This document shows, one piece after another, positions 4,013-59,637 of a DNA stretch of 64,000 nt. The first letter of the stretch is position 1. Each line of letters begins with the position of its first letter. The notes under the pieces are model-generated. The model worked only from the letters and a program-made list of their open reading frames with translations. It did not search any database and was not told the origin of the DNA. Source of the DNA: Kofleriaceae bacterium (GTDB lineage Bacteria > Myxococcota_A > Polyangia > Haliangiales > Haliangiaceae); NCBI GenBank assembly GCA_018057825.1, contig JAGPCY010000022.1, positions 1-64,000 of the forward strand. Direction: 5' to 3'. The translations under genes were made by a program, and so were the position numbers.

Positions 4013-4821
4013 CGGCGCGCCCCACACAGTCAAAGACCAACGGTACTCACCGGCCGGCAATCGTCGCGGGTCTGGATCCCGCTGCACCGTACTCGTCGAG
4101 GCTCTCGGCACGCTCGGCGCTGTTCACCGAGCTCCACCAGCTTCTCGACGGTGAAACCAAGGCGCTTTCGTCCGCCGAATACCGGCGCCGAGTGGTCGAC
4201 GAGAACCGCCTCGCGAAGCCGTCTAAGGCGGCTCGCGAGAAGCTCTGGAAGGAGCTGAAAGCACGGTACCGGCTCGACGCAGAGGACCCGCTCTTCGCTG
4301 CCTTTTGGACCGAGTGGACGCGCTGCACCTCGGAGCCCGAGCGCAGCCTCACGGCCTACGTGTTCTTCGCGCTCAACGATCGCCTCGTCACGGATCTCGG
4401 TGTTGATCTGCTCTATGCGCTTCTTCGTCGCGCGCCCGCAGAGCTGCGACTCGCTGACGTTCTCGCGTTCGTCGAGCGCGCTTACCGCGCCCATCCCGAG
4501 GCTCGCGCGTGGTCCGATGAGACGCGCACAGCCGTGGCTCAGAAGTACACGGCGAGCATCCGCGACTTCGGTCTCGCACGCGGCACGATTCGCAAGACCT
4601 CGCTCCGGCCCGCTCTCTACGGTGCGCCGGTACGCCTTCTCGTTCGGCTGCTGCGTCTTGCAGGTGTAGCGCCTCTCGACATCGTGCAATCGCCCGCCTT
4701 CAGGCTGCTCTGCCTCGACACGACCGAGGTCATCGATGCGCTGAGCGAGATGAACCGCGTGGGCGCGCTGCGCTTTCGCATGCAGGGAGACGTCGTCGAG
4801 CTCGACGTGCGTGGCACCTGA
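4009..4821 (+). CDS. brxA: BREX protein BrxA (DUF1819)
   Basis: A 270-aa protein of the DUF1819/BrxA family, a small DNA-binding component found at the head of type I BREX operons. Start GTG 4009 overlaps the upstream HTH stop; the protein begins with a short polar leader and enters the family-like region at SRLSARSALFTELHQLL. The C-terminal LRPALYGAPVRLLVRLLRLAG and the helical segment around DVLAFVERAYRAHPEAR fit the family. The gene runs directly into brxB (the stop ends at 4821, the first base of the brxB ATG). BrxA is required for defence in some BREX systems and dispensable in others. Confidence 0.9.
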   Translation: MTARPTQSKTNGTHRPAIVAGLDPAAPYSSRLSARSALFTELHQLLDGETKALSSAEYRRRVVDENRLAKPSKAAREKLWKELKARYRLDAEDPLFAAFWTEWTRCTSEPERSLTAYVFFALNDRLVTDLGVDLLYALLRRAPAELRLADVLAFVERAYRAHPEARAWSDETRTAVAQKYTASIRDFGLARGTIRKTSLRPALYGAPVRLLVRLLRLAGVAPLDIVQSPAFRLLCLDTTEVIDALSEMNRVGALRFRMQGDVVELDVRGT

Positions 4822-5396
4822 TGGACAGCATGTTCACCGCGCTCATTGACCTGCTCAAGACGCCGCTCCGGCACGACCGAGGCGTGAAGACCGACAGCTC
4901 CGTGCTGCTCATCTACCCGCCCGATCGCGAGCTCGACTTCCGGGAGCACCTGCTCGACACCTTCGTGCCCGAGCTGGACGCGAAGAACATCCCCCACCGG
5001 CTTCTCGACCTCTCTGGGTTCCTGTTCTCCGGCCTGAGCGACGAGCAGATCGAGTCGCTCCAGGAGGACGAATTCGAGGACTACCGCTGGATGAAGCAGG
5101 GCCTCTCCAAGCGGGCCGAGGCAGCTCTCCAAGCGCGTCTGACGGAGGAGGCCTCCAACGTCCCGGGCGGCAACGTCCTCGTGTACGCGACCGTCGCCTT
5201 GCATCCCGTCGTTCGCTACGGCGAGGTCCTCAAGGGCCTGCGCGACCTCGAAGCCCGCATTGTCCTCGGCTTCCCCGGTGAGGAACGTGGCGGGAAGCTT
5301 CACTTCATGAACCAGGCTGACGGCGCCAACTACCTGGCCGTCAAGCTGTTCGCGCGTTGGGGCAAGACGACGACGCCCGGGAGAGCCAGCACATGA
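4821..5396 (+). CDS. brxB: BREX protein BrxB (DUF1788)
   Basis: A 191-aa protein of the DUF1788/BrxB family. Diagnostic stretches are LIYPPDRELDFREHLLD, LDLSGFLFSGL and, near the C-terminus, KGLRDLEARIVLGFPGEERG followed by FMNQADGANYLAVKLF. The length is normal for the family. It overlaps brxA by one base and brxC by four (ATGA), so expression is translationally coupled. BrxB is an essential but biochemically obscure part of type I BREX and is thought to act with PglZ, PglX and BrxC. Confidence 0.92.
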   Translation: MDSMFTALIDLLKTPLRHDRGVKTDSSVLLIYPPDRELDFREHLLDTFVPELDAKNIPHRLLDLSGFLFSGLSDEQIESLQEDEFEDYRWMKQGLSKRAEAALQARLTEEASNVPGGNVLVYATVALHPVVRYGEVLKGLRDLEARIVLGFPGEERGGKLHFMNQADGANYLAVKLFARWGKTTTPGRAST

Positions 5397-8300
5397 CCAC
5401 CGTTCGAGAAGTCATCAAGCGCGACATCGGTGTGAAGGTCGAGGGCGTCGTCAAGGTGTTCGACCGCTCGGCGCTCGCGAACGAGGTTCGCGAGTACGTC
5501 GTCACCGACAAGATCGAGGACGAGCTGAAGCGCATCGTCGACACGTTCACCCAAGTCAGCGAGACGCTCCGACGTGGCGGTGCTTCGCGTGACGTGGTTG
5601 GCATGTGGGTGTCTGGCTTCTTCGGCTCCGGCAAGTCGCACTTCGCCAAGGTGCTCGGCTACCTGCTCCAGAACGACGAGCTGGGCACCGACGGAGAGCG
5701 CTGCATCGACGCCTTCGTGAAGCACCTCTCGGACAGCCAGCGCGGCAAGGACGTCCGCCTGCGGCTCGGTGAGATCAAGCTGAACACGCAGGTCCGCACC
5801 ATTGCGTTCGAGATCAAGAGCCGCCAGTCCCTGACGAACCCGAACTCCGTCGGCGAGATCCTCCTCTCCGAGTTCTATCGAGAAATCGGCTTCGGCGAGA
5901 ACTTCGTCGTCGCGCGCATCGAGCGTCGCCTGCACCAGCGGGGGCTTCTCGACAAGCTCGCGGAGACGTTCGAGTCGCTGCACGGCGTGCCGTGGCGCAG
6001 CGAGCAAGGCCGCGAAGACCTGATGACCGTTCGTCGTCGGCTGTCGAAGGTGCTGCCGAAGATCGATCCGAAGGAGTACCCGGACGAGGACTCGGCGAAG
6101 AAGGCGCTCGACGACGCCTTCCGCCACGAGAAGCTCACGGCGGAAGGCATCGCCGACGAACTCGTCGCGTGGGTCGACGCGCAGAAGCCGACCGGCAACA
6201 AGTCGCAGCACCTCGTGTTCGTCATCGACGAGATGGGCACCTTCATCGGTGACTCGAACGAGAAGATCGGCGAGCTGAATAGCCTCGCCGAGATGATCGG
6301 CAACAAGGGCAAGGGCAAGGTCTGGCTCGTGGTCACCAGCCAGCAGGACCTCGAGAAGGTCGTCGACCGCACGAACTTCCAGCCGACCCTCGTCGGCCGT
6401 CTCAACGCCCGCTTCGAGCTCAAGCCCCACCTCATCTCGGACGAGATCAACAAGGTCGTCTCGGAGCGCATCCTCAAGAAGCACCCGTCCGAGGAGAGCG
6501 GGCTCAAGGCGATCTACGCGACGCACGAAGGCCACATCGCCGACCTCGCGGACATCAAGGCGAGCCGCCGCCTCGCGAGCGTCACAGAGCGATCGTTCAT
6601 CGACGCCTATCCGTTCCTGCCTCACCAGGTTCGCCTGGCGCAGGACATCTTCGAGGCGCTCTCGGGCTTCCGAATCTCGGGCGGCGTTCGCTCGATGATC
6701 GCCGTGGTCATGGAGGCCCTCCAGGACCTCGCCGACAAGCCCCTCGGTGTCGTCGTCAGCTTCGACCAGGTCTTCGACGCCGTCGAGAACGACCTGCTCT
6801 CGCAGGAGTATCTCGGCGCATCGGGCGTGCGCTCGATCTACGAGTCGGACGAGCGTGTCCCCAACATGCCCGTCGAGTCGTCGCGCGTCCTCAAGGTGCT
6901 CTGGCTCCTCCAGCGCATCACGTGGGTGCCGCGTGTTCCCGAGACCCTCGCGAAGCTCCTGGTGCGCGACCTCACCACTGAGATCGCCCCGCTTCGCGGC
7001 CAGGTCGAAGCGACGCTCACCTCGCTTCAGGAGGCAGGCTACGTCGCCCGCGACGAGGCGACCGGCGAGTGGAAGTTCCTCAACGAGCGCGAGCGCACGA
7101 TCGAGCAGGCCATCCAGGAGATGGTTCGCCCCGGCGGCACAAAGAGCATCAGCATCGCGGCGGTGCGGCGCACCGCGCAGCAGCTCTGCAAGGACGAGGT
7201 CGTCACGCGAAAGAAGCTGGCGAACTTCGCCGTGACCCACGGCACCACGAAGGTCCCGTTCTCGTTCGGTGTGCATCTCGACGGCGAAGCGGTCGAGACC
7301 GGCCCCGAGTTGGAGGTCGTGTTCACGAGCCCGCTCGCACCGGGACGCAAGACCGACCTCGACGAGGTGCGCCGCCAGAACCAGGCCTCCGGCGCGAAGG
7401 GGAAGACGGTGTGGTGGGTGGCAGACGCGCCCGACAACCTCGAGTCCCGCTTCAAGCGCTACGAGGCGCTGGTCAAGGTCACTGGCGACAAGCGCTTCAC
7501 CGAGGACAGCTCCTCGGACACACAGGACGCGCTCTCCGAGAAGCGCAAGGAGCGCGACGAACTGCGGAGCGCGCTGGTGAAGGACCTCGAGCGCGCGTTC
7601 GTCACGGGCACGCTGTTCCACGGCGGCCAGGAGATCAGCCTCGAAGGCATCTCCGACCTGAAAGAGCCGATCAAGAGCGCGCTCTCGTCGGTCATCCCGA
7701 ACGTGTACCCGCGCTTCGCCATCGCGGATCGCTCCTTCGAGTTCGCCAAGAACCTCAAGGCGCTGCTCAGTCCGACGACGTCGGAGCTGCACAAGGTCGC
7801 GCCCGACCTGCAGCTCTTCGACACGCAGGGGAGCCTGCAGCGTGAATCGGCGCTCGTGGCGCAGGTGCTCGAAGTGCTGACCGACCTTCGCGACGAGGAC
7901 GCCGACGCCGAAGGCGCGCGCCTCCTCGATGCTAAGGACGACAAGGGCTTCAAGGGCTTCTCGCGCGCGCCGTTCGGCTGGCCCGACGAGCTGGTTCGTC
8001 TGCTCCTAGCGGCCTGCTTCCGCGCGGGCGCCGTCTACCTCGAGCAGCAGACCGCTTCGGGACCATCGGCGCTGTACGACTACAAGGGCGCCGACGAGGT
8101 TTTCTCGAAGATCACCTCGTTCAAGAAGGCCACGTTCCGCATCGCGGAGACGAGCCTCTCGGTCGACCAGATCAAAAAGGCGAGCAAGGCGCTCATCGCG
8201 ATGGGCGTGACCGGCACGCCGGAGTCCGGCAACGCCATCGCCGCTGCCGTGCGGACCCTCGGGCTCGCGCTCAAGTCCCGCATCGACGACGCGCGCATTC

Positions 8301-9133
8301 GGGCGCAGCAGGGCCTGCCCGTGCCCGAGACCATCCTCGGTGCGGCGAGCGCGCTCATCGAGCCCACCACGGCCAAGGACCCGACGGCCGTGGTCACCGC
8401 CTTCCTCGCGAAGGAAGACGTGTGGAAGACGCTCCACCAGTCCGTCGAGGCGCTGCGGCACTTCCTCGACGCGAACCGGCACAAGGACTTCGACCTGTCG
8501 CGTCGGCTGCTGGCGCTCGCGACCGACCACCCGCTGCCCGAAGCGCATCCGAAGCGCGCGCCGTTCGATCAGGCGGCGAAGGACCTCGCGGCCATCGTGG
8601 ACGACAAGGCGGTCGTCGCGCGCTGGTCGGACTACCGCTCCGCGTTCGACACGGCCTTTGCGGCGTACCGCGATGCGTTCGTGCAGAGCTACGACGAGGT
8701 CCGGCACGCGGCCGAGGCGGCCATCGCCGCCATCCACGCCGGCGATGCCTACAAGAACGCGCCCGCGGGCCAGCGCGAAGCCGTCGTCACCAAGGTGTTC
8801 GGCACGGGGCGGGTCTGTCACTATCCATCGCTCTCGCTTTCGTCCGTGGAGTCACTGCTCGACGCCGCCGGCAAGCGGAGCCTGACGACCCTGGAGCAGG
8901 CGCTCGTGGCGCTCCCTGTGTACCGCTCGCAGGTGGAGTCCGAGCTGGCCGCGCTGGTGCTTCCGCCGCCGCCTCCTCCTCCACCGGGCGAGAGAGTGTT
9001 CGAGTGGCGCCCGGCCTCCGTCCTCGTCGGCAAGCGCTTCGCGACCGAAACCGACGTCGACAACGCGCTCGATTCCATATCCAAAGAGCTCAAGGCCCGC
9101 GTGCGTGAGGGCTTTACGGTGGTGGTGAAGTGA
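5393..9133 (+). CDS. brxC: BREX ATPase BrxC
   Basis: A 1246-aa P-loop ATPase of the BrxC/PglY family. ATG 5393 is chosen because it overlaps the brxB stop and the protein then begins with VREVIKRDIG, typical of the family. Walker A is GFFGSGKS at residues 75-82; Walker B is VFVIDEMG at about 275-282. A long helical C-terminal region ends in a polyproline stretch (eight Pro near residue 1195) and a short basic tail. BrxC is a large motor-type ATPase needed for both host methylation and phage exclusion. It overlaps pglX by 4 nt (GTGA). No frame damage is seen. Confidence 0.94.
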   Translation: MTTVREVIKRDIGVKVEGVVKVFDRSALANEVREYVVTDKIEDELKRIVDTFTQVSETLRRGGASRDVVGMWVSGFFGSGKSHFAKVLGYLLQNDELGTDGERCIDAFVKHLSDSQRGKDVRLRLGEIKLNTQVRTIAFEIKSRQSLTNPNSVGEILLSEFYREIGFGENFVVARIERRLHQRGLLDKLAETFESLHGVPWRSEQGREDLMTVRRRLSKVLPKIDPKEYPDEDSAKKALDDAFRHEKLTAEGIADELVAWVDAQKPTGNKSQHLVFVIDEMGTFIGDSNEKIGELNSLAEMIGNKGKGKVWLVVTSQQDLEKVVDRTNFQPTLVGRLNARFELKPHLISDEINKVVSERILKKHPSEESGLKAIYATHEGHIADLADIKASRRLASVTERSFIDAYPFLPHQVRLAQDIFEALSGFRISGGVRSMIAVVMEALQDLADKPLGVVVSFDQVFDAVENDLLSQEYLGASGVRSIYESDERVPNMPVESSRVLKVLWLLQRITWVPRVPETLAKLLVRDLTTEIAPLRGQVEATLTSLQEAGYVARDEATGEWKFLNERERTIEQAIQEMVRPGGTKSISIAAVRRTAQQLCKDEVVTRKKLANFAVTHGTTKVPFSFGVHLDGEAVETGPELEVVFTSPLAPGRKTDLDEVRRQNQASGAKGKTVWWVADAPDNLESRFKRYEALVKVTGDKRFTEDSSSDTQDALSEKRKERDELRSALVKDLERAFVTGTLFHGGQEISLEGISDLKEPIKSALSSVIPNVYPRFAIADRSFEFAKNLKALLSPTTSELHKVAPDLQLFDTQGSLQRESALVAQVLEVLTDLRDEDADAEGARLLDAKDDKGFKGFSRAPFGWPDELVRLLLAACFRAGAVYLEQQTASGPSALYDYKGADEVFSKITSFKKATFRIAETSLSVDQIKKASKALIAMGVTGTPESGNAIAAAVRTLGLALKSRIDDARIRAQQGLPVPETILGAASALIEPTTAKDPTAVVTAFLAKEDVWKTLHQSVEALRHFLDANRHKDFDLSRRLLALATDHPLPEAHPKRAPFDQAAKDLAAIVDDKAVVARWSDYRSAFDTAFAAYRDAFVQSYDEVRHAAEAAIAAIHAGDAYKNAPAGQREAVVTKVFGTGRVCHYPSLSLSSVESLLDAAGKRSLTTLEQALVALPVYRSQVESELAALVLPPPPPPPPGERVFEWRPASVLVGKRFATETDVDNALDSISKELKARVREGFTVVVK

Positions 9134-35529: not shown

Positions 35530-36054
35530 TCACGAGCGGGGTTGGTTGGTGGCGAACAGGTAGCGGTGGATACGCCACGCGCCGTCCTCGCGGCGAAACA
35601 CGAACAGCTCGTTGTTGCCCTCGGTGACCTCGAGGTCGGCGGCGAGGATGCGGGTGCGGCCGGCGGAGCTGGTGCGCGCCCAGGCCCAGTCGCCGGCCTG
35701 GGTGAGGTCGTGGAGCTCGAAGCGAAGGTCGAGCTTGATGGTCGCGAAGACGGCCTGGTAGCCGGCGCGGACGGCGTCGCGGCCGACGAGGGCGGGCGCG
35801 TGCTGGGGCATGAACACCGGCTCGCGACCGTAGAGGCCGAGGATGGCCTCCAGGTCGTTGGCGTTGAGGGCGGCCTCATACGCCTGGATCACGGCGCGGA
35901 GGGCGGCGGCGGCTTGCGGGTCGGGCTGGGGGCCGGTGTCGGCGTTGGCGGTGGTCGAGGCGGGTTGGGGGCGGGCGCCGCACCCCGAGGTGAGGAGCCA
36001 CCCGCCGAGCCAGGCGGCCGCGAGGGTGGCGCGAAGGGCCGGGCGAGCGTTCAT
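35530..36054 (-). CDS. SnoaL/DUF4440-like lipoprotein
   Basis: A 174-aa protein with a lipoprotein leader (NARPALRATLAAAWLGGWLL, then TSGC as a near-lipobox) and a SnoaL-like (NTF2-fold) domain: AYEAALNANDLEAILGLYGR, PVFMPQHAPALVGRDAVRAG and the C-terminal NELFVFRREDGAWRIHRYLF. ATG 36054 is chosen because the signal peptide begins there. The next gene (36063-36440) is a very close copy without the leader, so the pair arose by recent tandem duplication or gene conversion. The function is unknown; the fold often binds small ligands or isomerises substrates. Probably anchored in the cell envelope. Confidence 0.8.
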   Translation of the reverse strand: MNARPALRATLAAAWLGGWLLTSGCGARPQPASTTANADTGPQPDPQAAAALRAVIQAYEAALNANDLEAILGLYGREPVFMPQHAPALVGRDAVRAGYQAVFATIKLDLRFELHDLTQAGDWAWARTSSAGRTRILAADLEVTEGNNELFVFRREDGAWRIHRYLFATNQPRS

Positions 36055-36062
36055 GTGGAGGC

Positions 36063-36440
36063 TCACGGGCGGGGTTGATTGGTGGCGAACAGGTAGCGGT
36101 GGATGCGCCACTCGCCGCCCTCGCGGCGAAACACGAACAGCTCGTTGTTGCCCTCGGTGACCTCGAGGTCGGCGGCGAGGATGCGGGTGCGGCCGGCGGA
36201 GCTGGTGCGCGCCCAGGCCCAGTCGCCGGTCTCGACGAGCTCGTGGATGGTGAACGCGATGTGCAGCTTGAGGGTGTCGAACACCTGCTGATACCCGGCG
36301 CGCACGGCGTCACGGCCGACGAGGGCGGGCGCGTGCTGGGGCATGAAGACCGGCTCGCTGCCGTACAGGGCGAGGATGGCCTCGAGGTGGTTCGCGTTGA
36401 GCGCGGTCTCGTAGCTCTTGATCAGGTCGGGGATGGTCAT
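36063..36440 (-). CDS. SnoaL/DUF4440-like protein, cytoplasmic copy
   Basis: A 125-aa single-domain protein (MTIPDLIKSYETALNANHLE at the start, RIHRYLFATNQPRP at the end). Long runs are identical to the gene just downstream, including RTSSAGRTRILAADLEVTEG. ATG 36440 has the domain boundary expected for the family. It is divergent from the LysR gene at 36556 with 115 nt between them, so it is a likely target of that regulator. Confidence 0.82.
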   Translation of the reverse strand: MTIPDLIKSYETALNANHLEAILALYGSEPVFMPQHAPALVGRDAVRAGYQQVFDTLKLHIAFTIHELVETGDWAWARTSSAGRTRILAADLEVTEGNNELFVFRREGGEWRIHRYLFATNQPRP

Positions 36441-36531
36441 GGCGCTGCTCCTTGGGCCGGCGGCGGGGCCGCGGGTGCGCCAACAGTGAGCCTTCCGCAG
36501 ATGGCGTGGCAGAGCGCGATGTGGCAAGATG

Positions 36532-36549
36532 CCTTCCAGAAATGGAAGG
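36532..36549. promoter_or_regulatory. Perfect hairpin in the lysR divergent region
   Basis: CCTTCCA-GAAA-TGGAAGG, a 7-bp perfect inverted repeat immediately before the LysR start at 36556, whose GGAAGGAG ribosome-binding sequence overlaps the right arm. It could be an operator, or could mask the ribosome-binding site. Confidence 0.4.
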
Positions 36550-36555
36550 AGCCTC

Positions 36556-37437
36556 GTGGACCTGAGGGCGGCCCAGCTCTTCGTGGCGGTGGTCCGAGCG
36601 GGGAGCCTCTCGGCCGCGGCGGCCAAGACGCGGGTCCCGCTCGCGACCCTGAGCCGCAACGTGCGTCAGCTCGAAGAGGCGCTCGGCGTGCAGCTCCTCG
36701 AGCGCAGCGCGCGCGGCACGAAGCTCACCGATGCTGGCATGCAACTGTACGAGCACGCGGGCCGCGGCATCGACGCCCTGCAGGAGGGCGAGCTGGCGGT
36801 GACGAGCCATCGCCACGTGCTCAAGGGGCGGCTCCGGTTGTCGCTGCCGCCGTCCTTCGAGCCGTGGTGGGAGCTGGTCGCCGCCTTTCAGCGCGAGCAC
36901 CCCGACATCCAGGTGGTGGTCCACACCACCGAGCGCGCCGTCGACCTGAGCCTGGAGGGCATCGACGTCGCGCTTCGGGTCGGGCCGGTGGTGCACGAGA
37001 GCCTGGTGGCCAAGCGGCTCTTGCGGTACCGCCACGTCCTGGTCGCGAGCCCGGCGCTGATCGAGCGCTTCGGCCTGCCCACCAGCCCCGACGCGCTGCT
37101 GCGGCTACCGGCCGGCATCTGGGTGCGCGACGCCAGCGCGCATCGCCTGTGGCGCCTCGGCGAGCGAACGATCGAACCGCGGCCGGTCCTGGCGGTGAAC
37201 GACTACCTGCACCTGCGCTGGCGGGCGCTCCACGGCGACCTCGTCACCGAGCTGCCGCCGTTCCTCGCGGCCGAGGCGCTGCGCGACGGGCGCCTGGTGG
37301 CGCTCTTGCCGGACCACCCGTTTCCCGAGCAGCAGGTGAGCTTGCTCTATCAGCGGCAGCCGCAGTCGTCGCGCGTTGTTCGTGCGTATCTCGACTACTG
37401 CCATCGAGTGGTCGGGCGCTACCTCGGGGAGGAGTGA
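36556..37437 (+). CDS. LysR-family transcriptional regulator
   Basis: A 293-aa regulator from GTG 36556, preceded by GGAAGGAG; ATG 36529 is an alternative. The N-terminal winged HTH reads FVAVVRAGSLSAAAAKTRVP then LATLSRNVRQLEEALGVQLL and ERSARGTKLTDAG. The rest is the effector-binding domain (GRLRLSLPPSFEPWWELVAA; VDLSLEGIDVALRVGPVVHE). The regulator is divergent from the SnoaL genes, the usual geometry for a LysR protein and its target. The last 113 bp of the gene are repeated at 38314-38426, beyond the Doc module. Confidence 0.9.
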   Translation: MDLRAAQLFVAVVRAGSLSAAAAKTRVPLATLSRNVRQLEEALGVQLLERSARGTKLTDAGMQLYEHAGRGIDALQEGELAVTSHRHVLKGRLRLSLPPSFEPWWELVAAFQREHPDIQVVVHTTERAVDLSLEGIDVALRVGPVVHESLVAKRLLRYRHVLVASPALIERFGLPTSPDALLRLPAGIWVRDASAHRLWRLGERTIEPRPVLAVNDYLHLRWRALHGDLVTELPPFLAAEALRDGRLVALLPDHPFPEQQVSLLYQRQPQSSRVVRAYLDYCHRVVGRYLGEE

Positions 37438-37456: not shown

Positions 37457-37606
37457 GCGAGGCGAGACCGAGACCGAGGCCGAGACCGAGGCCGAGGCGA
37501 GACCGAGACCGAGACCGAGGCCGAGGCCGAGGCCGAGGCCGAGATGGAGACCGAGACCGAGACCGAGAGCGAGGCCGAGACCGAGACCGAGAGCGAGGCC
37601 GAGACC
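37457..37606. repeat. Hexanucleotide tract 1 (GAGACC/GAGGCC)
   Basis: About 150 bp of near-perfect 6-bp units, mainly GAGACC and GAGGCC with some GAGAGC, GAGATG and GAGGCG variants. It lies between lysR and the AbrB gene. The same unit type recurs at 43668-43835 and 58391-58600. Confidence 0.9.
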
Positions 37607-37612
37607 GCGCGC

Positions 37613-37673: not shown

Positions 37674-37904
37674 ATGACGGTCAAGAAGCTCACTCGGGTC
37701 GGCGAGGGTGTGGGTATCGAGCTCGAGCGCTCTACGCTCGAGCGCCTCGGTATCACCGAGGACACGCCGCTCGAGGTCACGACGGATGGGGAGTCGCTGA
37801 TCGTGCGACCGATGACGCGCGCGCCGCTCATGGACCGCGCCCTGGCGGCGGCCGACCGGCTGATGGACGCGCACGCGGAGACCTACCGGAAGCTGGCGCA
37901 ATGA
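37674..37904 (+). CDS. AbrB/MazE-like antitoxin
   Basis: A 76-aa protein with a swapped-hairpin AbrB-type N-terminus (VKKLTRVGEGVGIELERSTL, then GITEDTPLEVTTDGESLIVR) and a helical tail (DRALAAADRLMDAHAETYRK) that would bind the toxin. It overlaps the doc-like toxin gene by 4 nt (ATGA), the standard antitoxin-first arrangement. It probably represses its own promoter. Confidence 0.85.
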   Translation: MTVKKLTRVGEGVGIELERSTLERLGITEDTPLEVTTDGESLIVRPMTRAPLMDRALAAADRLMDAHAETYRKLAQ

Positions 37905-38314
37905 GCCAGATGCCCGCCGAGATCGAGTTCCTCACGGTGGATGTCGTGCTCGCGCTGCACCAGCGCCAGCTCGAGCGCTTTGGTGGTGGCGACGGGCTGC
38001 GCGACCGCGGCTTGCTGGAGTCCGCGGTGGCCCAGCCGGAGGCGTCGTTCGGCGGCACGTACGCGAACGACGGTCTGTTCGCGATGGCGGCCGCGTACCT
38101 GTTCTACCTGGTGTCGAACCATCCCTTCGTCGATGGCAACAAGCGGGCCGGGTTGCTGTCGGGGCAGGTCTTCCTCGCGGTGAACGGCGTGACGCTCGAG
38201 CACGACTCCGACGCCTTCTACGCGCTGACGATGGGCGTCGCGGAGGGGCGCCTCGACAAGCTGGCGGTCGCGGCCGAGCTCGAGCGCATCGCGACGTCCC
38301 GGCGGAACCCGTAG
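37901..38314 (+). CDS. Doc-family toxin (death on curing)
   Basis: A 137-aa Doc-type Fic protein. It begins EIEFLTVDVVLALHQRQLER, has GLRDRGLLESAVAQPEASFG in the middle and the Doc motif HPFVDGNKRAG from His74 to Arg82 (GNKR rather than GNGR). Doc toxins phosphorylate elongation factor Tu and stop translation; the antitoxin is the preceding gene. The module lies between two copies of the lysR 3' end, which suggests insertion by recombination. Confidence 0.9.
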   Translation: MSQMPAEIEFLTVDVVLALHQRQLERFGGGDGLRDRGLLESAVAQPEASFGGTYANDGLFAMAAAYLFYLVSNHPFVDGNKRAGLLSGQVFLAVNGVTLEHDSDAFYALTMGVAEGRLDKLAVAAELERIATSRRNP

Positions 38315-40089: not shown

Positions 40090-40115
40090 CCATCGGGACG
40101 CGAGCTTCCCGATGG
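40090..40115. promoter_or_regulatory. Perfect 9-bp stem-loop between AraC and VOC genes
   Basis: CCATCGGGA-N8-TCCCGATGG directly after the AraC stop. It has no T-run, so it is more likely an operator or mRNA hairpin than a classical terminator. It contains ATG 40112, which makes ATG 40124 the better VOC start. Confidence 0.5.
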
Positions 40116-40123
40116 AGTCCCCC

Positions 40124-40537
40124 ATGAACGCGACGAACACGAAGCAGTCCCCGACGCTTGGATACGTGATCATCTACGTCCCTGACGTCCCCCGCGCGAT
40201 GGCCTTCTACGAGCGCGCCTTCGGCCTCGCGCAACGCTTCCTCCACGAGTCCGGCACGTACGGCGAGATGGAGACCGGCGCGACCGCGCTGGCGTTCGCG
40301 GACGAGGTAGCGACGACGAGCCAAGGCTGGTTCGAGCCGAACCGGGGTGCTTCGAAGGCGGCGGGCGCGGAGGTGGCGTTCGTCGTCGACGACGTGCAGG
40401 CGGCCTTCGCGCAGGCGATCGCGAATGGTGCGACAGCGGTGCTCGCGCCGGTCGGCAAGCCCTGGGGACAGACGATCTCCTACGTGCGGGACCTCAACGG
40501 GTTCCTCGTCGAGATCTGCTCGGCGGTAGAGCACTGA
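40124..40537 (+). CDS. VOC-family (glyoxalase/bleomycin-resistance fold) protein
   Basis: A 137-aa protein with two beta-alpha-beta-beta-beta units: LGYVIIYVPDVPRAMAFYER then AFGLAQRF, and AEVAFVVDDVQAAFAQAIAN then GQTISYVRDLNGFLVEICSA (final Glu metal ligand). ATG 40124 has GGAG 6 nt upstream; ATG 40112 is within the stem-loop. The VOC fold covers glyoxalases, dioxygenases and drug-binding proteins; no specific substrate can be named. Confidence 0.85.
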   Translation: MNATNTKQSPTLGYVIIYVPDVPRAMAFYERAFGLAQRFLHESGTYGEMETGATALAFADEVATTSQGWFEPNRGASKAAGAEVAFVVDDVQAAFAQAIANGATAVLAPVGKPWGQTISYVRDLNGFLVEICSAVEH

Positions 40538-40586: not shown

Positions 40587-41189
40587 TCATCGCCGCGGGG
40601 CCGGGCGGCGTCGGCGCGGGAGCGCGAAGGGCGTCGGGTGCGAGGGGAACATCAGGCGCAGCGTGGCGGCGAGTTGCGCCAGGACGTAGTCGGCGAGGGT
40701 GCCGCGCGGCTCGGTGGTCCACTGGGTGGCGGCGCCGGCGATGACGGCGTGGAGGAGCGGGGCGGCGCCGGCGGGGGCGTCGCCGGGCAGGCGTCGATCG
40801 AGCTCGGCGATAACGGCGCGGGTCCGCTGGCGGGCGAGAGCGCGGAGCTCGGGCACCTGGAGCTCGTACCAGGTGATGAGGAAGTTCACCGAGAAGTCGT
40901 ACCGGGTGTTCATGCTCCGGAGGAGCGACTGCAGGAAGGTCCATAGGCCCTGCGGTCCCGGGCCGATGGGGATGGCGTCGAGATGGACCCGCGCCTGCGC
41001 GATGCTGCGCCTCATCATCCGCACGAGGAGGGTGTCGCGGTTGGTGAAGCGCTGGATCAGCGCCGCGCGCGACAGGCCCACGGCGGCCGCGACGTCGCTG
41101 AGGGTGAAGGCCAGAGGGCCGCGATCCCGCAGCACGGCGACAGCAGCGTCGAGGATCTCGTCGTCGGAGCGGAGCTTGGGGCGGGGCAT
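40587..41189 (-). CDS. mphR: MphR-like TetR-family repressor
   Basis: A 200-aa TetR regulator that closely follows MphR(A) as I recall it: the start MPRPKLRSDDEILDAA, the HTH VGLSRAALIQRFTNRDTLLV, then IPIGPGPQGLWTFLQ, NFLITWYELQVPELRALARQ and the C-terminal ADYVLAQLAATLRLMF. MphR(A) represses the macrolide-resistance operon and is released by erythromycin-type macrolides. The gene is 60 nt downstream of the mph gene in the same direction. In the known mph(A) operon the mrx gene lies between the two; it is absent here. A matching palindrome lies upstream of mph. Confidence 0.93.
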   Translation of the reverse strand: MPRPKLRSDDEILDAAVAVLRDRGPLAFTLSDVAAAVGLSRAALIQRFTNRDTLLVRMMRRSIAQARVHLDAIPIGPGPQGLWTFLQSLLRSMNTRYDFSVNFLITWYELQVPELRALARQRTRAVIAELDRRLPGDAPAGAAPLLHAVIAGAATQWTTEPRGTLADYVLAQLAATLRLMFPSHPTPFALPRRRRPAPRR

Positions 41190-41249
41190 TGGCGGTCGGC
41201 TTCGGTGGGGCGGTGTGGGCCGCGGCCCGCGTTCACCCGCGTCGGCGGT

Positions 41250-42152
41250 TCACGCTGGGGTCGCGAGCTGCGCCTGGGCGGCGGCGAGGTGGGTCGCGTC
41301 CCCCGACTCGAGGCCGAAGAGCGCATAGGTCACCGGCCACGCGGCCAGGCGCTCGGCGGTGTGGTCGGCGATCCGCGGCCAGCGCCGGCCGCCCGCGGCC
41401 GCGTAGGCATCGAGGAGCTTGGTCAGCCCGACCTCGCCGAAGACCATGAGGTGGGAGGTCAGATCGATCGAAGGATCGTCCACGCGGGCCTCGCTCCAGT
41501 CGATCATGCCGGTGACGCGCTCGGCGCGATCGACGAGCACGTGGCCGACGTACAGATCGCCGTGGACGACCGCGCAGAAGTCCGGCCACGACGCGTCGTC
41601 GTCGAGCCAGCGCTGCCACCGGGCGAGGCGCTGCTCGTGCACGGCGAGCTCGCGGCGGACCCGGTCGAGGTCGTCTGCCACCTGCTGGCGAGCCTGCGCG
41701 GGTGTGCGGACCCGCATGCCGGCGTCGATCGCCGCGTCGACCGGCACGGTGTGGAGGGCGGCGATCGCGGCGGCCAGACTGTCCGCGAAGATCGCCGAGT
41801 CCTGCGGCACCGCCCACTCCGGCGTCGTGGTGCCCGGCTGGACCGAGATCGCGGTCGGGTCCTCGAGCATGGGATAGGCGATCAGCTCGGGGCTGGCGAT
41901 GCGCCAGTCCGGCACGGCGAAGGGCAGGCGCGACCGCAGCATGGCGAGCGCCCGCGCCTCGCGCTCGATCTTGGCGCTGACGTCGGCGCGCCGCGGGATG
42001 CGCAGCACCCAGCGGGGCCCATCGTCGACCGCGGCGATCACGATCCGGTAGTCGAGGCCGAGCTCGTTGATGGACAACGGGCCGGTGAGCCGGAGCCCGT
42101 GGCGGGCGGCGAGGGCGTGGAGGTCGGCGGCGTCGGCGTCGGTGGGGACCAT
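41250..42152 (-). CDS. mphA: Macrolide 2'-phosphotransferase, Mph(A)-like
   Basis: A 300-aa kinase of the macrolide phosphotransferase family, which inactivates erythromycin-like drugs by phosphorylating the desosamine 2'-OH. Very similar to Mph(A): LHALAARHGLRLTGPLSINE, LGLDYRIVIAAVDDGPRWVL, RLPFAVPDWRIASPELIAYP and RWQRWLDDDASWPDF. The catalytic loop is VVHGDLYVGHVL (Asp199) and the metal-binding Asp is in MIDWSEARVDDP (Asp218). ATG 42152 gives almost the same length and start as Mph(A); a TTG upstream would add 8 codons. It forms an operon with mphR and has a palindromic operator 30 nt upstream. Confidence 0.94.
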   Translation of the reverse strand: MVPTDADAADLHALAARHGLRLTGPLSINELGLDYRIVIAAVDDGPRWVLRIPRRADVSAKIEREARALAMLRSRLPFAVPDWRIASPELIAYPMLEDPTAISVQPGTTTPEWAVPQDSAIFADSLAAAIAALHTVPVDAAIDAGMRVRTPAQARQQVADDLDRVRRELAVHEQRLARWQRWLDDDASWPDFCAVVHGDLYVGHVLVDRAERVTGMIDWSEARVDDPSIDLTSHLMVFGEVGLTKLLDAYAAAGGRRWPRIADHTAERLAAWPVTYALFGLESGDATHLAAAQAQLATPA

Positions 42153-42181
42153 AGGGGCCTCGCGGTCGTGGCTCAACGAAA

Positions 42182-42201
42182 ATAACCGACGCGTGGGTTA
42201 T
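42182..42201. promoter_or_regulatory. Likely MphR operator upstream of mph
   Basis: ATAACC-N8-GGTTAT, palindromic at 18 of 20 positions, 30 nt before ATG 42152. The ATAACCGACG half matches the MphR(A) operator as I remember it. Supports macrolide-inducible control of the mph-mphR unit. Confidence 0.75.
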
Positions 42202-42277: not shown

Positions 42278-43465
42278 CTACGCGCCACCGAGCTCGGTGC
42301 CGACCCGGAGTCGATCGAGGTAGCCCCGGTACACGAAGGAGCGGTCGCGCTTCTTGCCGGTGGTCTCGACGAGAACGCCGGCCGCGACGAGCAGCTCGAT
42401 CGCCCGGCCCGCGGTGGGCTTGGTGGTCGCCACGAGCTTCATCACCGACGCGACGGTGACGATCGGCTGGCGCGGCAAGAACTCGAAGAGCCGCAGCGCG
42501 ACGACCGACATCCCCGCGTGGGCGAGCACCCGCGTGCGATCTGCGGCGACCAGCGCGAACAGCTCTCGCGCGGAGGCGACCGCCTCGTCGGCGATCGTCG
42601 CGACGCCGTCGAGGAAGAAGTCGAGCCAGCCCTCCCAGTCGCCGTCGCTGCGGACGGCGTTGAGCCGGCGGTAGTAGTCCTCACGATGCCGCTTGAAGAA
42701 CAGGCTCAGGTAGAGGAGCGGCTTGGTCAAGAGCTTCCAGTGCTCGAGGAATAGCGTCACGAGCAAGCGGCCGATGCGACCGTTGCCGTCGAGGTAAGGG
42801 TGGATGGTCTCGAACTGCACGTGCAGGAGCGCCGCACGCACGAGCGGTGGTAGGGCGTCGTCTGCGTGGAGGTACTTCTCGAACGCGCCGAGCACCTCGC
42901 CGAGCGCGTGCGGAGGTGGTGGCACGTACGCGGCGTTGCCGGGGCGACTCCCGCCGATCCAGTTCAGGCTGCGACGCACCTCGCTGGGAAGCTTCTCGGC
43001 GCCACGCACGCCGCGCATCAGTCGGGCGTGGGTCTCGTTCAGGAGTCGCATCGACAGGGGCAAGCCCCGCGGATCCGCGAGCTGCGCACGCGCGTGGGCG
43101 AGCGCGTCGAGGTAGTTGCACACCTCCTCGACGTCGGCGCTGGGCGCAGCCCGCGGCTCGGCACTGTCCTGGGCCTCGAACGTGAGCAGGTCGACGAGGG
43201 TCGCCTGCGTGCCCTCGATCTGCGACGACACCACGGCCTCCTTGCGCACGAACGCGTAGATGAACCAGTCGAGCGACGGCACCATCTCCCCGGCCAGCTC
43301 GAGGCGAACCAGGGCTTGCTCAGCGGTACGGAGGCGGGCGGTGACGGCGGTGTCGACGACGAGCGGCGGCGGCGCCGCCGGCGGCAGGGCGTGCGGGAGG
43401 AAGGCCGCGACCTGCTCCCCGCCCACGGTGGTCCGCTCGTATCGTCCGGTGGTTCGCTTCGGCAT
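42278..43465 (-). CDS. Fic-family protein, class II with C-terminal winged helix
   Basis: A 395-aa Fic protein. The self-inhibitory motif [S/T]xxxE[G/N] is SSQIEG (Ser80, Glu84, Gly85), before the Fic core as in class II. The catalytic motif is the complete HPYLDGNGRIGR. The C-terminal ~90 residues (VVALRLFEFLPRQPIVTVAS, then LLVAAGVLVETTGKKRDRSF) form a winged helix. This is the common chromosomal self-regulated AMPylase architecture. Repeats just upstream (43554-43592) may be its operator. It is unlike the BREX-embedded Fic, which lacks its own inhibitory motif. Confidence 0.92.
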   Translation of the reverse strand: MPKRTTGRYERTTVGGEQVAAFLPHALPPAAPPPLVVDTAVTARLRTAEQALVRLELAGEMVPSLDWFIYAFVRKEAVVSSQIEGTQATLVDLLTFEAQDSAEPRAAPSADVEEVCNYLDALAHARAQLADPRGLPLSMRLLNETHARLMRGVRGAEKLPSEVRRSLNWIGGSRPGNAAYVPPPPHALGEVLGAFEKYLHADDALPPLVRAALLHVQFETIHPYLDGNGRIGRLLVTLFLEHWKLLTKPLLYLSLFFKRHREDYYRRLNAVRSDGDWEGWLDFFLDGVATIADEAVASARELFALVAADRTRVLAHAGMSVVALRLFEFLPRQPIVTVASVMKLVATTKPTAGRAIELLVAAGVLVETTGKKRDRSFVYRGYLDRLRVGTELGGA

Positions 43466-43592: not shown

Positions 43593-43667
43593 GAGCGCAG
43601 GGCCGGGGGCAGCCGGCAGCATCGACGGAGCAAGGTCAGTTGGTTACACGGCCGGACGGCCACTGCC

Positions 43668-43835
43668 CGAGACCGAGACCGAGGCGGAGACCGAGACCGA
43701 GGCCGAGACCGAGACCGAGACCGAGGCGGAGGCCGGAGACCGAGACCGAGACCGAGGCCGAGACCGAGACCGAGACCGAGACGGAGACCGAGGCCGAGAC
43801 GGAGACCGAGACCGAGGCGGAGGCCGAGGCCGAGC
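43668..43835. repeat. Hexanucleotide tract 2 (GAGACC/GAGGCC/GAGGCG)
   Basis: About 168 bp of 6-bp units, ending two bases before the stop codon of the GlxA gene (minus strand). Same unit family and plus-strand orientation as tracts 1 and 3. Confidence 0.9.
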
Positions 43836-49387: not shown

Positions 49388-50508
<1,121 letters not shown>

Positions 50509-58373: not shown

Positions 58374-58390
58374 AGGCTTCGGGGCGTAGG

Positions 58391-58600
58391 CGTAGGCGGA
58401 GGCCGAGGCGGAGGCGGTGGCGGAGCGGAGCGGAGACCGGGGCGGAGGCGGAGACCGAGGCGGAGACCGAGACCGAGGCGGAGGCCGAGACCGAGACCGA
58501 GGCCGAGACCGAGACCGAGGCGGAGACCGAGGCAGAGGCGGAGGCGGGGGCCGAGACCGAGGCCGAGACCGAGGCGGAGACCGAGACCGAGGCCGAGCCG
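58391..58600. repeat. Hexanucleotide tract 3 (GAGGCG/GAGACC/GAGGCC)
   Basis: About 210 bp of 6-bp units just after the reductase stop. More GAGGCG than in the other tracts. Same orientation as tracts 1 and 2. Confidence 0.9.
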
Positions 58601-58668
58601 GGTGCGGGCCCAGGGCCACGGCGCGGGGTTGGTGTCGGGGACGCGAACGGCCTGGTAGCGTGGCGGCA

Positions 58669-59637
58669 ATGCCGAGCGCGCGCCCCGACCCGAGTCCTCG
58701 AATCTTCTCGACCGCGTTTGCTGCGGTCTATCCGCTGTACGTGCAGAAGGCGGAGCGCAAGGGGCGCACCCAGGCCGAGGTCGATGCGATCATTGAGTGG
58801 CTGACTGGGTACCGCGGCGCGGCGTTGCGCCAGGCGCTCGACCGCAAGGTGGACTTCGCGACCTTCTTCGCGAAGGCGCCGCGGATGAATCCCCAGGTCG
58901 GGCTCATCACCGGCGTGGTGTGTGGGGTTCGCGTCGAGGAGGTCGCGGACCCGCTGATGCGCAACATCCGCTACCTCGACAAGCTGATCGATGAGCTCGC
59001 CAAGGGCCGGGCCATGACCCGGATCTTGCGCGGCAGTGAGGAGCCGAAACCGGCCGCGGCGAAGGTGTCGTCGGCGAAGGTGTCGGCGGCGAAGGCGCCG
59101 GCGGCGAAGGTGTCGGCGGCGAAGGTGTCGGCGGCGAAGGTGTCGGCGGCGAAGGCGCCGGCGGCGAAGGTGTCGGCGGCGAAGGTGTCGGCGGCGAAGG
59201 TGTCGGCGGCAAAGGTGTCGGCGGCGAAGGCGGCCGCGGCTCCGCCGATCCCGGCTGACATCGCCGCGTACCATCGCGGGTTGGCGCCCGCCGACCGCGC
59301 GCTATGCGAGGTCCTGGCCACCGAGATCGCGGCTGCGCTTCCGGACGCTACGGGCAAGGTCTGGCACCGCCATCCGGTGTGGTTCCTCGATGGCAACCCC
59401 GTGGTCGGCTACGTCCGGCTGAAGGGCTGGCTGCGGCTCCTGTTCTGGAGCGGCCAGTCCTTTGAAGAACCGGCGCTCGTGCCCGAGGGCTCGTTCCGCG
59501 CGGCCGAGGCGCGGCTCACCGCGATGGGCGACCTCGATCGGGTCGCGCTCCGGCGCTGGCTCGGCAAGTGCCGCACGATCCAGTGGGACTACCAGAACCT
59601 GGCCAAGCGCAAGGGGCGCCTCGAGCGGCTGCGGTAG
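58669..59637 (+). CDS. DUF2200-DUF1801 fusion with a KVSAA repeat linker
   Basis: A 322-aa protein. Residues ~10-115 are DUF2200 ([40 protein letters not shown], then [20 protein letters not shown]). Residues ~130-190 are a repeat linker with units AAKVS and AAKAP. Residues ~195-322 are DUF1801 ([57 protein letters not shown]). The two domains are usually separate small proteins. The basic Lys/Ala linker resembles histone-tail-like DNA-binding segments. Cytoplasmic, function unknown. Confidence 0.87.
59056..59235 (+). repeat. 15-bp coding minisatellite, 12 units
   Basis: Units of GCGGCGAAGGTGTCG, with GCGGCGAAGGCGCCG variants that form a higher-order 60-bp period (59101-59160, 59161-59220). 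In frame with the host gene, encoding [10 protein letters not shown]. Copy number is probably variable between strains. Confidence 0.9.

Follow-up and report, generated by a model that had tools for sequence, protein, structure and literature searches.

The locus

The window is the whole stretch of 64,000 nucleotides that was analysed. It contains a gene for a predicted macrolide phosphotransferase, a gene for a TetR repressor and a predicted operator, which lie between two flanking genes as follows.

40112..40537, plus strand: glyoxalase/bleomycin-resistance superfamily protein gene, a flank thought to lie outside the operon
40587..41189, minus strand: mphR, predicted TetR repressor resembling MphR(A), 200 aa, lying after mph and co-directional with it
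41190..41249, minus strand: mph-mphR spacer of 60 nt, the position of mrx in the clinical operon
41250..42152, minus strand: mph, predicted Mph(A)-like macrolide 2'-phosphotransferase, ATG start, 300 aa
42182..42201, no strand assigned: predicted MphR-type operator, ATAACCGACGCGTGGGTTAT, an exact ATAACC-N8-GGTTAT with 9/10 dyad pairs
42278..43465, minus strand: Fic domain protein gene, a flank thought to lie outside the operon

The locus sits on a 149.6-kb contig of an 8.9-Mb genome that is 99.7% complete. The host is a Polyangia-class myxobacterium, since its genome shares a GTDB family with G012, a Nannocystineae MAG. The strand and order of mph and mphR are those of the clinical operon. The neighbours examined are glyoxalase, AraC, Fic, DJ-1/AraC, LysR and esterase genes, and none of them is an insertion element. 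Neither IS26 nor IS6100 was seen among the ORFs adjoining the pair. The pair and its adjoining ORFs thus show neither the insertion sequences nor the near-identity to clinical copies that mark the mobile IS26/IS6100 mph(A) unit.

Other features of the surroundings can be listed briefly. A Doc-like toxin gene (37877-38314) and the Fic_N/Fic gene (42278-43465) are near the operon. There are tandem arrays of 6-, 9-, 15- and 18-nt units at 37463-37607, 43667-43834, 49454-49539, 58383-58601 and 59056-59230. Two similar CGAGAC hexamer arrays flank the operon at distances of about 3 kb and 1.5 kb. The overlapping adjacent ORFs at 35530-36111 and 36063-36659 encode near-identical protein (EAILxLYGxEPVFMPQHAPALVGRDAVRAGYQ), suggestive of a tandem duplication.

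The kinase and the repressor

Along its full length the window Mph shares 72% identity with plasmid Mph(A). Its first structure match is PDB Mph(A) 5igh (phmmer, E=1e-145, residues 2-298). PF01636 is found at E 3e-31, and the motifs HGDLY and IDWSEA occur at residues 197 and 217. This is full-length similarity to the APH fold with the HGD and IDW motifs kept, as in an Mph(A)-type kinase. All of the best NCBIfam models describe macrolide phosphotransferases. The Mph(A) model NF000254 scores highest, and its 494 bits are under the 550-bit cut-off. By convention one mph gene class is 80% identity (used in PMC8914350), and 72% to Mph(A) is below that as well. Therefore the window kinase is a new mph class beside mph(A) and not mph(A) itself. 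Judging from the sequence it should work like Mph(A) even though it is a separate class. The window's own genome was searched for a second Mph and has none.

One can imagine that this kinase acts on some other natural product, a non-macrolide of prey or host that MphR senses. Substrate range varies among Mph enzymes (PMC5760710), and the Mph(A) score is below its cut-off. However, the close relatives of known activity are macrolide kinases, the motifs are conserved with Mph(A) at 72% identity, and the top NCBIfam models point to macrolides without exception. We consider another substrate quite improbable.

The window MphR is 67% identical to MphR(A). Its first structure match is PDB MphR(A) 3frq (E=5e-80). 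It has a TetR_N domain (PF00440) and full-length similarity to MphR(A), which is what the sequence of such a repressor should look like.

Relatives of the operon

Relatives were searched for in 318 genomes of the class and 379 of the phylum, and a further scan covered 84,980 species genomes. There is a gap in identity, with one clade at 70% or more and everything else at 49% or less. The members of this clade are the window, six other loci and the clinical copies. Outside the clinical copies the clade is almost wholly Myxococcota, the remainder being one Verrucomicrobia MAG.

L030 is on the 22,106-base contig C384 (SLNH01000232.1) of G012. It has mph, an mrx stump and mphR, and it is the only other close pair within the window's family. 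L022 is on a 7.8-kb contig of the Verrucomicrobia MAG and has mph-mrx-mphR at 77/73/79% (4116-7272). It is possible that its assignment to Verrucomicrobia reflects mis-binning. This operon adjoins an integrase fragment. Its mphR, cut short at 157 aa, contains an internal repeat, LSRAALIQLSRAALIQ. In L028 (Polyangiaceae) and L029 (Myxococcales) only the kinase is present. L023, from the Myxococcota MAG RA.bin121, is a complete mph-mrx-mphR that is 92/88/89% identical to the clinical operon.

The viral-contig scan found a 12.9-kb metagenome contig, L069 (IMGVR_UViG_3300048587_001062), that is 99.6% identical to L023. Its complete mph-mrx-mphR is also 92/88/89% identical to the clinical operon, and it lies between tail-region genes, directly after a tail gene. 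The phage-type genes here are baseplate TIGR02243, tail TIGR02242 and an amidase. No capsid gene was identified on the 12.9 kb, so this piece could be a phage-tail-like element.

Beyond the gap there is L036 in G157, which belongs to another family. It is an mph-mphR pair (minus strand, 928-2370) that is 47-49% identical and has no mrx. It has ATAACAGACGCGAAAGTTAT just before the start codon, and the tail gene occurs twice in the same genome. Within Myxococcota the operon is patchily distributed, which makes it likely that transfer between myxobacteria has also taken place.

Operator and promoter

The preliminary description had placed ATAACC-N8-GGTTAT 30 nt upstream of the kinase. The exact site is there, and it ends 29 nt before the mph ATG. 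About 0.09 operator-type sites are expected in the window at up to 2 mismatches. The 8.9-Mb genome has exactly one at up to 1 mismatch, and the reversed control pattern has no sites in it. The window thus has a putative cognate operator upstream of mph, as an MphR(A)-type repressor should. The clinical operator, ATAACCGACGTGACTGTTAC, is 40 nt before mph(A) and, with 6/10 dyad pairs, is less symmetric than the window operator. The one in L022 is a perfect 20-nt palindrome.

The pattern ATAAC-N10-GTTA[T/C] is upstream of mph in every lineage that has mphR (the window, L030, L022, L069, the clinical copies and L036). It was found at none of the scanned mph loci that have no mphR, including L028 and L029, which have at least 70% identity. 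Across the lineages the first 17 nt of the operator are in the spacer position between -35-like and -10-like hexamers. In the window these hexamers are TTGTTT-17-TATTTT (minus strand), which is weakly sigma70-like. They are TTGATT/TATAAA in L069 and TTGAAT/TACATT in the clinical copies, and L036 has no recognisable -35. An automatic scan of the window locus for promoters and terminators called nothing. From position and conservation we infer a promoter around the window operator. It is a comparative reading, since neither hexamer is strong enough to be called by that scan.

Phylogeny and residence

The clade at 70% or more has a support of 100/100. The clinical copies group with L023 and L069 at 100/99, and the window falls outside. 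Placing the window beside the clinical copy or the L023 copy is rejected with the concatenated Mph and MphR (AU 6e-5 to 7e-5). The best place for the window is the earliest branch (trees 1 and 2, RELL 0.55+0.21, about 0.76), and other placements survive. The forks inside the clade are weak, and they stay unresolved in mph-only codon trees and codon-position-1+2 trees.

For Mph the dN is 0.15-0.19 and the dS is 0.75-0.87, which gives a dN/dS of about 0.2. For MphR the dN is 0.26-0.27 and the dS is 0.76-1.18. This divergence is mainly silent, which implies that purifying selection has maintained both window genes. GC3 is 0.95 in mph and 0.93 in mphR and ranges from 0.84 to 0.94 in the neighbouring genes. 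The pair is at the level of its neighbours, so it must have been resident for a long time.

The agreement in order, direction and operator could also be expected if the clinical operon had been acquired recently and mrx then deleted. The preliminary description named a position inside the clinical clade as the sign of this. The window is outside that clade (AU p about 6e-5), and the tree test refutes such an acquisition. The 28% protein divergence, the dS of about 0.84, the GC3 and the adjoining ORFs in which neither IS26 nor IS6100 was seen also speak against it. The tree rejection, the silent divergence and the GC3 together exclude a recent acquisition, and we see next to no chance that it occurred.

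The other claims of the preliminary description can be judged here. It had both proteins following Mph(A) and MphR(A) over their full length. At 72% and 67% identity they do, and the low identity that it named as contrary evidence was not seen. The order and direction that it gave agree with the clinical operon. It offered the pair as an environmental ancestor or side branch of the mobile operon, and only the second half of this stands. Our trees support the window as a side branch of the lineage behind the clinical operon. They do not support it as the direct ancestor, since L023 and L069 are much closer (92% in Mph, with a complete operon).

The absence of mrx

The preliminary description was right that mrx is missing between the genes. 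In the 60-nt spacer any trace of mrx scores within the range of shuffled sequence, and the window's own 8.9-Mb genome has no Mrx homologue. The window therefore does not have the gene arrangement of the mph(A)-mrx-mphR(A) operon. This absence may be ancestral or a loss.

It could be that the window pair once had mrx and then lost it. This is what seems to have happened in L030, which is in the same family. Its mrx consists of the first codons joined to about the last 57 residues, and the stump is fused to its start (about 8884-9060, between mph and mphR). As its sequence reads, this stump is a secondary loss of the transporter. Loss of mrx therefore does happen, because L030 still keeps the 57-aa stump, and most trees that nest the window among the mrx-bearing loci survive testing. 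On the other hand, the earliest branch is the best-supported place of the window, its spacer has no mrx trace, and the more distant L036 also has adjacent mph and mphR without mrx. We read the absence as ancestral because the window is favoured as the first branch and L036 has the same arrangement. Loss in the window is a real contender that we rate somewhat below even. The ancestral state is mildly favoured.

A tail-gene scar upstream of the clinical operon

Some clinical mph(A) copies have not been cut by IS26. These are Yanghanlia L031, Marinobacter L027 and 40 plasmid records (including Alcaligenes, Shewanella, Vibrio, Pseudomonas and Escherichia), and they have extra upstream sequence. 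In this sequence 73 nt (L031:7821-7893, L027:7271-7343), present in all 40 plasmid records, align with the 3' end of the L069 tail gene through its stop codon, with one frameshifting base. The best score of this scar against the tail gene is 82, and the maximum in 500 shuffles is 33. Of the 16 best scar alignments, 15 run precisely to the stop codon of the tail gene. A blind DNA search of 318 Polyangia genomes with the 73 nt gave 7 matches, and 6 of these are on the 3' ends of tail genes.

The tail 3' end (NHWELGLSDLGETTDLH and then the stop) occurs in many Polyangia genomes and IMG/VR contigs that have no mph. It is found in tail genes without mph, so this 3' end belongs to the tail gene and not to the operon. 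The tail gene is present in 27 of the 318 Polyangia genomes. It was found in 0 of 274 Gammaproteobacteria, 0 of 50,697 phage records and 0 of 72,556 plasmid records. Nor was it found in genomes with the clinical mph(A). A longer stretch of phage-derived sequence was looked for in the plasmids, and upstream of the 73 nt nothing matches the tail loci. Downstream of plasmid mphR only 56 nt match them. The plasmid unit adjoins a Tn3-family transposase and resolvase, and the common clinical form lacks the tail stub, which IS26 has removed. As a separate observation, the phage record MH445380.1 (Escherichia phage P1) has a clinical-type mph(A), a second phage route for mph(A).

This scar is polarized. 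The stub is truncated in plasmids and the tail gene is full in the phage-like element, so the direction is from the element to the plasmid. The sequence evidence suggests that the clinical operon left Myxococcota via a phage-like element. This is against the Enterobacteriaceae origin derived for mph(A) in a large 2022 survey (PMC8914350).

The opposite route must be considered, in which Proteobacteria passed the clinical operon on to Myxococcota and their phages. Many hosts do indeed have identical clinical copies. An import has been proposed for an identical activated-sludge mphA (PMC11208604), and the Enterobacteriaceae origin (PMC8914350) fits this direction too. However, the non-mobile diversity of the clade is in Myxococcota and the one Verrucomicrobia MAG, with 21-30% between lineages. 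The clinical stub of 73 nt belongs to a tail gene that is full-length in Polyangia elements that have no mph, and none of the 274 Gammaproteobacteria has that gene. We regard the reverse direction as unlikely. We argue that the mph operon most widespread in enteric pathogens probably has its origin in Myxococcota and that a phage-like element carried it out, a fragment of whose tail gene is still joined to mph(A) in plasmids of Proteobacteria. The window would then be an older mrx-free form under chromosomal regulation.

Proposed mechanism

We propose that the window locus is a native chromosomal macrolide-sensing operon of two genes. Without drug, a dimer of MphR would sit on the 20-bp operator between -35 and -10 and block transcription of mph and mphR. 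MphR(A) releases DNA on macrolide binding, and on this basis a macrolide that binds the window MphR would make the repressor leave its operator. Mph would then inactivate the drug by phosphorylating the 2'-OH of the macrolide amino sugar with GTP. New MphR from the common transcript would reset the switch. MphR would limit its own synthesis, since mphR is downstream of mph and co-directional with it.

In one mrx-bearing branch, the operon would have come to lie just downstream of the tail gene in a Myxococcota phage-like element. The operon and 73 nt of the tail gene would have been captured next to a Tn3-family transposon, and trimming and spread by IS26 would follow. The sequence identities, the operator and its co-occurrence with mphR, the tree position and the scar are direct observations, and from them we infer the repression, the induction, the substrate and the capture event. 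As a joint explanation we hold it to be very probable that the window is a native macrolide-sensing pair, that it branches off to the side of the Myxococcota lineage that was the source of the clinical operon, and that this operon made a phage-like exit.

Comparison with known systems

A 2021 review of origins has a known source taxon for no mobile macrolide-resistance gene (PMC7782503). For mph(A), the evidence from the window and its relatives points to a source in Myxococcota, and most of the interest lies in the proposed phage-like exit. The tail-gene stub would be a physical relic of that route, and it can be checked in closed plasmids. The diverged pairs of MphR and operator are a family for studying how macrolide sensing evolves. 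No published proposal of a Myxococcota origin was found, most subscription papers and preprints lying outside the search.

The clinical mph(A)-mrx(A)-mphR(A) operon of plasmids (e.g. NZ_CP071072) is like the window in order, direction and an operator in the promoter spacer. It differs in having mrx, IS26/IS6100 and the tail-gene scar. The window is chromosomal and myxobacterial and has the more symmetric operator. L069 and L023 share the gene families, the operator and the Myxococcota with the window, but they have mrx and an operon between tail genes. Mph UGF100 of Myxococcus and Corallococcus (PMC8914350) is a functional macrolide phosphotransferase from myxobacteria, but it is near Mph(O) (48-50%) and not Mph(A). 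In the 2024 case of an activated-sludge myxophage (PMC11208604), a phage of Myxococcota carries mphA together with tetR and MFS genes, like the loci described here. The mphA in that phage is reported to be identical with that of Proteobacteria, and it was interpreted as imported. The loci described here recast that case, since they are diverged and point the opposite way.
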